Under the pieces are notes generated by a model. The model made no database searches. It had not been told where the DNA came from and was given only the letters and a program-made list of their open reading frames with translations. 47,395 nucleotides of DNA from Kamptonema formosum PCC 10802 (GTDB taxonomy: Bacteria > Cyanobacteriota > Cyanobacteriia > Cyanobacteriales > Oscillatoriaceae): assembly GCF_000332335.1 (NCBI RefSeq), contig NZ_KB235948.1, positions 3,510,042-3,557,436 of the forward strand. Reading direction: 5' to 3'. Position 1 is the stretch's first letter, and every line of letters starts with the position of its first letter. Shown piece after piece: positions 34,529 through 42,484 of the stretch. The translations under genes and the position numbers were made by a program.

Positions 34529-35512
34529 ATGTTCCCAATCCACCGCCCCCGCCGCTTGCGCAGCCATCCCCAGCTTCGCCGTATGGTGTGCGAAAATCTT
34601 TTGACCGCCAGCGACCTGATTTACCCCCTGTTTGCCGTACCGGGAGAGGGCATCGCCAAAGAGGTGAAGTCCATGCCCGGGGTGTACCAGCTGTCGGTAG
34701 ACAAGATCGTGATAGAAGCGAAGGAAGTCTACGATCTGGGGATTCCGGCGATTATCCTGTTTGGCATTCCAGACGTTAAGGATGGGGATGCCACCGGCGC
34801 GTGGCACGATTGCGGAATTGTCCAGAAAGCCACGGCTGCAGTCAAAGCAGCGGTGCCGGATCTGGTTGTGATTGTGGATACTTGCCTGTGCGAGTACACC
34901 AGTCACGGACACTGCGGCTATTTACAGACCGGCGATTTGACGGGTCGGGTTTTGAATGACCCGACGCTGGAGTTGCTGAAGAAAACTGCGGTGTCGCAAG
35001 CAAAAGCCGGCGCTGATATTATTGCGCCGTCGGGGATGATGGACGGGTTTGTGGGGGCCATCCGCGCGGGGCTGGATGAGGCGGGGTATCAGGAGGTGCC
35101 GATTCTTTCCTACGCGGCGAAGTACGCTTCGGCTTACTACGGGCCATTTCGGGATGCGGCTGAGTCCACGCCCCAGTTTGGCGACCGCCGGACTTATCAA
35201 ATGGACCCGGGGAATGCGCGGGAAGCCCTTAAGGAAATTGAACTGGACATCGCCGAAGGGGCGGACATGCTGATGGTGAAGCCGGCTCTGGCTTATATGG
35301 ATATTATCTGGCGCGTCAAGGAAGCGAGTAACCTGCCGGTGGCGGCTTACAATGTCTCTGGCGAATATTCTATGGTCAAGGCTGCGGCCCTCAATGGCTG
35401 GATTGACGAGAAGCGGGTGGTTCTGGAAACGCTGACCGGCTTCAAGCGTGCCGGTGCTGACTTGATTTTGACCTACCACGCCAAAGATGCCGCCCGCTGG
35501 CTGCAAGGGTGA
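34529..35512 (+). CDS. hemB: Delta-aminolevulinic acid dehydratase (porphobilinogen synthase)
   Basis: 327 residues. It joins two 5-aminolevulinate molecules to porphobilinogen, feeding haem, chlorophyll and bilin synthesis. Active-site lysines are K198 ([15 protein letters not shown]) and K251 ([13 protein letters not shown]). The metal segment is [14 protein letters not shown] with C119, C121 and C129, the zinc-binding type rather than the Asp-rich magnesium type of plant chloroplasts. Full length for the family. An ATG start, 134 bp after rpmA. The spacer downstream holds a strong promoter and the candidate structured RNA. Confidence 0.96.
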
Positions 35513-35535
35513 GAGCAGGATTTAATCCTGGATTC

Positions 35536-35565
35536 TTGACGCAAAGCAGTAGGACACGGTATAAT
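35536..35565 (+). promoter_or_regulatory. Strong sigma-70 promoter 3' of hemB
   Basis: TTGACG at 35536-35541, an 18-bp spacer and a perfect TATAAT at 35560-35565. Transcription would begin near 35572. The next protein-coding gene starts 850 bp on, so this promoter points to a non-coding transcript. Confidence 0.75.
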
Positions 35566-35571
35566 GAGATA

Positions 35572-36000
35572 CGTTAGCGAACCGTGCCGACCGATCGAGT
35601 TGAAAATAGTGCTTGATTTCTTATCCGTCTTTGAGACTTCCGACACGGTTGCCAAGCGAAACAGGAAATTGAGCTTAAAGCAGCTGTCATCGGCGCTGAG
35701 CGTGAAAGCGCTCTGGGTTTAAGTAGTTGCCAAAACACCGACCTGAAACGTTCGCGTTCATAGTGCTTTCGGGATCTTCCTGAAAGCTTTGCGGGATACC
35801 GCCTCTATCACTTTTACGGGTGATAGTGCTATCGTTGCGTTGTCCGGGGTTATCCCGGATAATGTCGCGTAAATGTATCAGCTAAGGCTAGCAGCTCCTG
35901 ACCGGATCGATCCCTGGCCACAGGGGCGACCGCTGCGGTGGCCCTAAACAGGGAGCGAATCAGGGAAAAAGAGGGGAAAATTGCATCGATTGGCAGTTGA
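35572..36000 (+). ncRNA. Candidate large structured RNA, possibly HEARO/omega-type
   Basis: Between a strong promoter and a perfect terminator lie about 430 bp without a convincing gene but with ordered hairpins. These are a long-range AACCGTG/CACGGTT pair, CTTTC/GAAAG at 35766-35786, CTATCAC/GTGATAG at 35805-35826 and TCCGGG/CCCGGA at 35843-35859. A composite stem CCCTGGCCAC / GGTGGCC..CAGGG spans 35912-35953. The order of short GC-rich hairpins, the TATCAGCTAAGGC segment (35876 on) and GGGAGCGAATC near the end remind me of HEARO/omega RNAs that guide IscB/IsrB proteins. That resemblance is from memory. No IscB gene is in the window, so it would be a stand-alone copy. Confidence 0.5.
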
Positions 36001-36042
36001 GGGGCGTGTTGCCATGCGCCAGGGGCTAGGGCAACACGCCCC
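36001..36042 (+). terminator. Terminator hairpin of the candidate RNA
   Basis: Perfect 13-bp stem GGGGCGTGTTGCC / GGCAACACGCCCC with a 16-base loop, followed by TTGCTGTTTG. It closes the unit that begins at the promoter at 35536. Confidence 0.7.
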
Positions 36043-36127
36043 TTGCTGTTTGCGCTTAAATGTCAGGAAATCCTAACAAAAATGTGGGAAAAAACCCTAA
36101 AAAGTATTGTGCGTCTCTACGAAAACT

Positions 36128-36272
36128 TATAATATTTGATATTAGGCCGGCCCCTGCATCTAACGTTGGAGCCAAGGCGACTGACAGAGCAAACAGGGAG
36201 CGGCCACGGTTGAAGCTTTTGCTAGAAAGAAATGCGTAAAACGCATGATATGGGTCTTTTTGGGCCGCTCCC
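36128..36272 (+). other. Second promoter-plus-hairpin segment
   Basis: A perfect TATAAT at 36128-36133 precedes a long inverted pair GGGAGCGGCC (36196-36205) / GGCCGCTCCC (36263-36272). Between the arms is a nested perfect hairpin ATGCGT AAA ACGCAT. No clear -35. This could be a small RNA or a non-autonomous inverted-repeat element; no target duplication was seen. Confidence 0.4.
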
Positions 36273-36426
36273 ACTCTCAGATTCAAGAGGGCACCGGCAC
36301 TCTTCGACGACGGTTTCACGAGTGAAACCTACAAGAATTTCCCCCTAAAAATTCACTCTTTAGGGGGATGTGCGGATCGCTATTTGGTGTAAATTAAAGT
36401 TATCTTCGGCGCAGATTTAAGGAACA

Positions 36427-36912
36427 ATGAATTCAAAAACCACAGATTGCCGCCACATTCGGTTTTGCGACCGAAAGTCTGAGATTAACCTCAAGCAGCT
36501 GCAAGAACTGTTTCATTTAGCAGCGTTTTGGGCGCAGGACAGAAAGATTGAGGATTTGGCAATCGCTATCGCCAACAGCGAGCCGGTAATCAGTGTCTGG
36601 GATGGGGAGCAAATGATTGGGTTTGCTCGCGCGACTTCTGACGGGATCTACCGGGGTGCGATTTGGGATGTGGTGATTCACCCGGACTATCAAGGTGCCG
36701 GTTTGGGGCGCAAGCTGGTGCAGACAGTGCTCAGCCACCCCCGGATGAGCCGGGTGGAGCGGGTTTACCTGATGACGACTCGCCAGCAGAAGTTCTACGA
36801 GCGGATTGGGTTCGAGTACAACGCCTCTACGACGATGGTGCTGTACAATCCGCTGCTGGTGAGCCAGGTGCAGGAGAGCGAATTGCCACTGGAAGCGTAC
36901 ATTGAAGCCTGA
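36427..36912 (+). CDS. GNAT-family N-acetyltransferase
   Basis: 161 residues. The acetyl-CoA pyrophosphate loop is in motif A, VVIHPDYQGAGLGRKLVQTVL (Q-x-x-G-x-G). Motif B is FYERIGFEYN. The N-terminal half shows LFHLAAFWAQDRKIEDLAIAI, a substrate-side helix. Full length for the family, which transfers acetyl from acetyl-CoA to an amine. The substrate is unknown. The last 86 bp overlap the convergent histidine kinase gene, and both frames look real there. Confidence 0.9.
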   Translation: MNSKTTDCRHIRFCDRKSEINLKQLQELFHLAAFWAQDRKIEDLAIAIANSEPVISVWDGEQMIGFARATSDGIYRGAIWDVVIHPDYQGAGLGRKLVQTVLSHPRMSRVERVYLMTTRQQKFYERIGFEYNASTTMVLYNPLLVSQVQESELPLEAYIEA

Positions 36913-42410: not shown

Positions 42411-42484
42411 TCGGGATGACAGGATTTGAACCTGCGGCTCCCGCATCCCAAATGCGGTGCGCTACCAAGCTGCGCTACATCCCG
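42411..42484 (-). tRNA. tRNA-Pro (anticodon UGG)
   Basis: On the minus strand CGGGATG...CATCCCG forms the acceptor stem. The D-arm, anticodon arm and T-arm (GCAGGTTCAAATCCTGT) fold into a cloverleaf. The anticodon stem CCGCA/TGCGG encloses the loop TTTGGGA, giving anticodon UGG for proline. The discriminator base is A. The CCA end is not encoded. Confidence 0.96.

Follow-up and report, generated by a model that had tools for sequence, protein, structure and literature searches.

The hemB-GNAT spacer in a 47,395-nucleotide stretch of the Kamptonema formosum genome (the window) contains a 366-bp mobile element (35516-35881) that is almost certainly a non-autonomous derivative, shortened by internal deletion, of a pro-Fanzor TnpB-type transposon from the IS607 family, with an reRNA-type right end. 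We consider it moderately probable that this derivative serves as a guide RNA in trans, by which TnpB would cut the empty site. The first-pass annotation had proposed a stand-alone omega RNA here; it came near in kind, as the element looks like a transposon-derived OMEGA-type guide RNA that lacks a nuclease gene, its stems show compensatory changes, and the genome has an open TnpB frame at another locus (L038), but it named the wrong family.

We searched the genome (8.59 Mb, nine contigs) with 35513-36426 as query and scored the best 40 of 72 first-look candidates, which yielded at least 45 matches. At least 11 of these, the window copy included, span query positions 1-369 or nearly so, and two other full-span copies are 99% and 98% identical to the window copy; copies at this level of identity sit between unrelated flanks. 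The remaining matches listed comprise one over query positions 1-225, 28 over approximately 253-369 or part of that range, and five small pieces, one of which is the 36000-36043 palindrome against itself. The limits of the element were set by comparing flanks between copies and by empty sites: the repeated sequence stops at 35881, and 35882-36042 has no second copy among the own-genome matches listed, the palindrome self-match aside. Right-end motifs number 48 in this genome, and in some longer copies the two ends found here are separated by 1.3 to 2.0 kb. The window copy carries neither tnpA nor tnpB; it is short, multi-copy, and non-coding, with ends common to longer coding elements, and is thereby a MITE in the broad sense, without terminal inverted repeats, as in IS607. 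Pfam gave nothing at E≤0.001 for a 52-aa open reading frame inside it (35564-35722), which ruled out a protein gene as the explanation of the locus and agrees with the earlier statement that no known gene family accounts for it. The 366-nt element had no match in plasmid and phage collections at E≤1e-5. The features are collected in Table 1.

Table 1. Features of the element and its surroundings, in window positions (A1 and A2 are the right-end alignments described in the text; percentages are shares of paired cells)
Feature	Position	Strand	Evidence
Target triplet GAG, also putative TAM; AG is the crossover dinucleotide	35513..35515	+	65 insertions, 4 empty sites
Non-autonomous IS607-type element (CAGG...TATCAG), 366 bp	35516..35881	+	Own-genome copies, flank comparison, empty sites
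Left end (LE), common to tnpA/tnpB-bearing copies	35516..35569	+	Copy alignment
Promoter-like TTGACG-18-TATAAT inside LE, ahead of the tnpA start in longer copies	35536..35565	+	Scan
Leftover tnpB fragment, broken frame	35597..35723	+	127-nt match, 69%, to L119 tnpB
Interior without match to tested tnpB donors (part of class-A interior)	35724..35764	+	Alignment to donors; no Rfam match
Right end (117 nt), putative reRNA scaffold that overlaps the 3' end and stop codon of the ancestral tnpB	35765..35881	+	A1, A2 alignments
Stem-loop A	35765..35787	+	91.5% (A1), 93.6% (A2); 4 and 5 double-change pairs
Stem-loop B, GCGG-GATA-CCGC	35791..35802	+	96.1% (A1), 97.7% (A2)
Loop GATA, possible pseudoknot partner of TATC 35876-35879	35795..35798	+	99.5% (A1), 99.2% (A2)
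Stem-loop C	35805..35826	+	91.0% (A1), 92.8% (A2); 2 double-change pairs in A2
Stem-loop D, long helix, variable apex	35833..35869	+	82.4% (A1), 81.0% (A2)
TATC, possible pseudoknot partner, just 5' of AG and guide	35876..35879	+	A1, A2, 65 insertions
Host sequence in guide position (CTAAGGCTAGCAGCTCCTGA)	35882..35901	+	Flank varies between insertions
Palindrome outside element, in hemB-GNAT spacer	36000..36043	+	O. princeps homologue without element, imperfect arm

The promoter-like pair described in the first-pass annotation is present; it lies inside the repeat and matches the consensus at 11 of 12 positions. A looser promoter class occurs at three sites in 34800-36700 (both strands) versus 1.3 in shuffles, and a -10-like box (at least 5/6 of TATAAT, with A2 and T6 required) is found in 58 of 65 left ends, a count made without shuffle comparison. 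The best-conserved core of the tnpB fragment lies at 35607-35662 (FLPTFETSN...VAK in L038; query positions 95-150 in other copies), and 35663-35723 still aligns weakly to tnpB.

Insertion sites were compared across 65 insertions from the same genome, its relatives, and named genomes in which both ends were recognised by left-end and right-end patterns (some are common to several species by descent, and L095 is counted twice). Directly 5' of the element the bases are AG in all 65 and GAG in 59, with a purine before it in 64. We also searched the joined flanks of six copies against two same-genus genomes, G001 and G002 (best 40 candidates per genome), whose loci have exact 60-mers in common with Oscillatoria sp. 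Prado101 and Oscillatoria princeps RMCB-10, respectively. An uninterrupted site was recovered in G002 for four of the six copies (L002, L003, L004, and L008) and GAG is present in every one, such that the empty site reads ...GAG|N... and its occupied counterpart GAG|CAGG...TATC-AG|N. There is no target duplication and exchange occurs over an identical dinucleotide, as expected for IS607; judged by these sequences, insertion in this family exchanges two bases (AG), in the manner of serine recombinases. The passages cited for IS607 itself likewise describe two-base exchange without target duplication, the pair being GG (PMC6188088). No empty site was found for L005 and L006 among the best 40 candidates in each of G001 and G002. 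The L006 flanks are unrelated, very abundant repeats with dozens of matches in both genomes. In G001, the L003 site has GAG with a different insert nearby (L126), and the L004 site is a junction without GAG (L124). The window copy lies immediately behind hemB, with its GAG target directly adjoining the hemB stop codon. In O. princeps the element is absent from this locus, where the junction between hemB and spacer carries 8 nt in excess of a clean removal, and therefore this empty site is not base-perfect; from 35977 onward the window aligns with the O. princeps sequence at 90.7%. A different size class of element lies just upstream of rpmA, the gene before hemB, in O. princeps (L054).

The longer copies identify the parent transposon. 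One of them (L032) has a MerR-type HTH open reading frame between its ends, and a Resolvase match with two stops at C3:5573136 belongs to the same element. TnpB is recognised by Pfam Cas12f1-like_TNB in L032 (3.3e-19) and by NCBIfam guided_TnpB in L038 (1.2e-38, cut-off passed), where the frame is open and free of N. In the tnpB copies of L032 and L121, repeated stretches flank a run of N that may be an assembly gap. At C3:712912 (L111:1330-2233) the IS607 TnpA gene is open (NF033518, 1.8e-62, cut-off passed); the tnpB of that element has lost everything from the middle of the gene up to the final 15 nt of the right end. The family thus has the TnpA of IS607, a serine recombinase with an N-terminal MerR-type HTH, and its parent TnpB carries the pro-Fanzor fingerprint DPG...ExxxxxxCxxC...CxxC...D with the rearranged glutamate (pattern as given in the part of PMC10711439 cited here). 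This fingerprint occurs without a stop in 14 locus rows, which represent four own-genome elements and four in relatives because the loci overlap, and the other tnpB remnants did not match the published pattern. TnpB-domain places in the genome number 23, of which 18 are above the cut-off, and Resolvase places 16, both counts including other elements. Among solved structures, the L038 protein scores best against TnpB-like protein L79 (9b0l; 95.8 bits), which we take to be the mimivirus Fanzor2, while the TnpB entries 8h1j and 8bf8 score about 30 bits, well below it. This ranking points to a possible position of the parent TnpB in the Fanzor clade, and IS607 TnpBs, primarily of cyanobacteria, have been reported as putative ancestors of Fanzors (PMC10711439).

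The last 117 nt of the element represent the 3' end of such a tnpB, as one frame reads FGIFLKALRDTASITFTGDSAIVALSG...NVA-stop, and they fold into four hairpins that end at the host junction. As in reRNAs, this structured right end overlaps the tnpB 3' end and has variable sequence directly 3' of it. The first-pass annotation had placed a guide at the 5' end; instead, the sequence that varies from copy to copy adjoins the structured end 3' of 35881, as in TnpB reRNAs. A four-hairpin, 40-pair model was drawn from the fold of the window copy and then counted on two alignments: A1, consisting of 52 of 57 right ends (omitting L111, which retains the tail only, two duplicates, L025, and the second L095 match, and with L058 replaced by the window copy itself), and A2, consisting of 33 tnpB-less copies hand-selected across size classes. 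In A1, 89.2% of cells are paired compared to 87.6% in shuffles, a share that leans towards the model because it was drawn from the window copy, and 14 pairs have double changes (35 such cells); 0 of 500 shuffles reached any of five measures, and slid structures were 32 to 50% paired. In A2, 89.7% of cells are paired and 11 pairs have double changes (39 such cells), with 0 of 500 shuffles reaching four of the measures and 29 of 500 reaching the fifth ("further standard pair types"); for both alignments, the relatedness of the copies to each other is a caveat on the covariation counts. The compensatory changes support the four hairpins, also in copies without tnpB.

Variation is unevenly spread over the hairpins. 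Stem-loop B is nearly invariant and therefore contributes little evidence of this kind. One pair of stem-loop C changes from AU to GC in 10 of 52 A1 rows and is unpaired in 13, and a one-base insertion in 7 of 52 A1 right ends also shortens this stem; one-base insertions break the tnpB frame in several MITE copies. Double changes affect 9 of 15 pairs of stem-loop D in A1 and 4 of 15 in A2, and some of its apical pairs are broken in most rows, one of them in 36 of 52. The clearest case for structure being kept at stem-loop A is the 316-bp class of Laspinema (L136 and L158), in which ten pairs form from different sequence and the frame at this position no longer reads as TnpB. The GATA loop and the TATC beside the guide may form a pseudoknot; both are practically invariant and therefore give no covariation evidence for it, and their position matches that of TnpB reRNA pseudoknots, in which guide-flanking bases pair with a loop (PMC10711439, in the part cited). 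Folding z-scores of the 33 A2 copies have a median of -4.0 and range from -7.6 (the window copy) to -1.4; for 10 of them, the fold of lowest energy differs from the four-hairpin model. The RNAalifold consensus on A1 is weak (-10.9 kcal/mol, 21 pairs, 7 with double change) and differs from the four-hairpin model.

TnpB is believed to maintain the transposon that encodes it. In the mechanism that we propose for the window copy, transcription from the left-end promoter would run through the scaffold into host DNA and yield an RNA in which the right flank from 35882 serves as the guide; TnpB from another copy would bind this RNA in trans and cut DNA in which (R)GAG precedes the guide sequence, that is, a chromosome copy that lost the element, and repair from the occupied sister chromosome would restore it. 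The occupied site would be spared because the guide match there is preceded by CAG instead of GAG. Movement itself would depend on IS607 TnpA acting in trans, for which the open gene at C3:712912 is a candidate source. We lean towards the scaffold RNA being made and used in trans by TnpB. A search of G000, G001, and G002 with GAG plus the first 14 guide nucleotides returned the window itself as the best match, with one mismatch (GAG read as CAG); the putative TAM is therefore absent at the occupied site, as the model requires. No other target with fewer than two mismatches was found in these three genomes, and places with two or three mismatches numbered 30 versus 11 for a reversed-pattern control in G000 (self counted), 15 versus 8 in G001, and 32 versus 20 in G002, an excess that counts against the model.

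The element could also be a plain MITE, an IS607 derivative moved by TnpA in trans whose right-end hairpins are an idle relic of the parent reRNA, and we regard this as a real possibility, albeit not a likely one. The near-identical copies between unrelated flanks and the open TnpA gene of the same family (L111) would be expected of such an element, and the fold is common to tnpB-bearing copies; the scaffold of the MITEs may simply be inherited, with the covariation descending from several tnpB parents, and transposition alone could explain why the right end is kept. We asked whether, within class A, the right end changes more slowly than other parts, and it does not: divergence is 0.133 in the right end, compared to 0.080 in the LE, 0.161 in positions 61-95, 0.096 in the tnpB fragment, and 0.146 in the middle, so that the right end is not the slowest-changing part and changes faster than the LE. 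The extent of the retained right end argues in the other direction. In a hand-picked set of 20 copies representing size classes between 192 and 536 bp, aligned to tnpB donors, tnpB homology began 113 to 127 nt before the end in 10, at 152 in 1, at 180 in 3, at 197 to 208 in 5, and at 422 in 1; none began nearer than 113 nt, and stem-loop A starts at 117. Right ends of several size classes thus stop at the edge of stem-loop A, and no fewer than three architectures look independent, namely class A together with the Laspinema 327-type, L039, and the Laspinema 316-type. In IS1535, the digestion stops bounding TnpA on the right end lie at RE 7 and RE 28 (PMC6188088, in the part cited), and more right end is therefore kept here than this precedent needs. 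The Laspinema copies in which stem-loop A arises from new sequence, and the frame there no longer reads as TnpB, likewise speak against an idle relic. L111 is an exception to the minimal right end, as it retains 15 nt only and still has an open TnpA gene.

Two readings that treat the locus as something other than an IS607 derivative fare far worse. Altae-Tran and colleagues reportedly described stand-alone omega RNAs for IscB in 2021, and a stand-alone HEARO/omega RNA for IscB/IsrB, as suggested in the first-pass annotation, would fit the general likeness of a hairpin-rich transposon RNA. An IscB-type gene does exist elsewhere in the genome: the search returned one RRXRR gene (C3:5677914) with a HEARO RNA alongside. 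That RNA (L202:1638-1873; 105.8 bits) lies just upstream of the RRXRR match, which is in an open 451-aa frame. With this positive control in the same genome, HEARO had no match at E≤10 in 35400-36440, the neighbouring open reading frames are hemB, GNAT, and a histidine kinase and not iscB or isrB, and the homology of the element runs to tnpB, which its longer relatives carry; we give this identity almost no credence. The idea of a transposon-derived guide RNA is common to both systems, and they differ in RNA family, nuclease, and guide end. Searches with 4227 Rfam families over the same interval gave no match at E≤10 to 6S, RNase P, or tmRNA either; the sole match at that threshold, to a miRNA model at 35981-36058 (E 1.2), lies beyond the element and falls well short of the cut-off. 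Of two sequence segments earlier taken as parts of the RNA, GGGAGCGAATC (35951-35961) lies outside the element and TATCAGCTAAGGC straddles the element/host junction (TATCAG|CTAAGGC).

It is also very improbable that the locus encodes a large regulatory RNA in its own right, started from its own promoter and terminated by the 36000-36043 hairpin. The promoter-like site and the low folding energy speak for it, and the claim of ordered structure held to that extent: 35570-36052 folds at -198.9 kcal/mol (z -5.06), with 0 of 100 shuffles as low. The supposed single unit from 35536 to 36042 does not exist as such, however, as the conserved repeat ends at 35881 and the sequence from 35977 onward is host DNA in O. 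princeps, where the element is missing. The terminator hairpin described earlier is a perfect palindrome (36000-36013/36030-36043, 14 nt, 100% complementary), but it was not called by a terminator scan, has no T-run, and lies outside the element; as the 3' end of the RNA it was rejected, being outside the repeat and host DNA in O. princeps.

The 117-nt right end has matches in 7 of 388 genomes of the class and a 370-nt query in 6 of 30 genomes (the own genome included in both), the latter over its whole length in G000 and G002 alone; in G001 a contig end truncates the single copy, and G004, G008, and G023 match at the right end only. An exact 21-mer of the right end occurs in 58 stretches of the named genome collection, all 58 with cyanobacterial titles (own genome possibly left out), including Oscillatoria, Laspinema, Arthrospira, Spirulina, Hassallia, Microcoleus, and others.

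Several described systems resemble this element in part; the comparisons refer to the portions of each source cited. The IS607 pro-Fanzor elements of cyanobacteria share the DPG motif and rearranged RuvC glutamate of the parent TnpB as well as IS607 TnpA (PMC10711439). ISXfa1 has a right-end guide RNA with stem-loops, a pseudoknot beside the guide, and exchange over a matching dinucleotide, but with GG/GGG where the family here has AG and the target (R)GAG, and the window copy is without tnpA and tnpB (PMC10711439). The ISFba1/RAGATH-18 reRNA is also an IS607 TnpB guide RNA at the right end, and its TAM, AGGAG, resembles RGAG (PMC11061315); RAGATH-18, whose model is expected in the library, was not among the Rfam matches at E≤10 in 35400-36440, and 97.8% of the strains in that study were Firmicutes (PMC11061315). 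IS607 and IS1535 share the absence of terminal inverted repeats and target duplication and the two-base exchange, but use (G)GG instead of GAG with an AG core, and the element here is non-autonomous (PMC6188088). Short non-autonomous repeats are also known as the archaeal SMN1 (PMC3718332), which is mobilised in trans by the ISC1733 transposase, and as the MITEs of Anabaena 90 (PMC3542288); a guide-RNA function is not described in the portions cited for either. We found no published report of IS607/pro-Fanzor MITEs with guide RNAs in the open-licence PMC literature.

If nuclease-less mini-elements keep working scaffolds, many elements without a tnpB of their own could be sustained by a single TnpB. 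We tentatively suggest, as a speculative extension, that in cyanobacteria dozens of nuclease-less mini-elements, each a promoter and a scaffold, feed guides in trans to one Fanzor-ancestor TnpB, such that a single nuclease maintains the whole non-autonomous population and the minimal right end was shaped by selection on the RNA as well as on transposition. Were this true, it would represent an early form of a guide-RNA set with a shared nuclease in the proposed bacterial ancestor lineage of Fanzor. The idea is directly testable, since copies are abundant, their guide-position sequences differ, and some empty sites are known in a sister species, O. princeps. For annotation, an apparent orphan large RNA becomes part of a mobile element.

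Some further observations concern the surroundings of the family. A tandem repeat with a unit like GCCGGCTCGTTCGTACC, open in several frames, occupies L111:729-1260 upstream of the tnpA element. Three element copies lie 7 to 9 kb apart in L026 (C4:693177-713121) and L047; two of the three have the same left flank, which is found also at an O. princeps copy, and the triple is probably a duplicated segment. Another IS607 element (L097:1429-3166) has an open TnpA and a TnpB with DPG and without the zinc-ribbon cysteines (EAYTSKTVSWTG). At gathering thresholds, the sole Rfam match of the whole window is a tRNA on the minus strand at 42411-42484.
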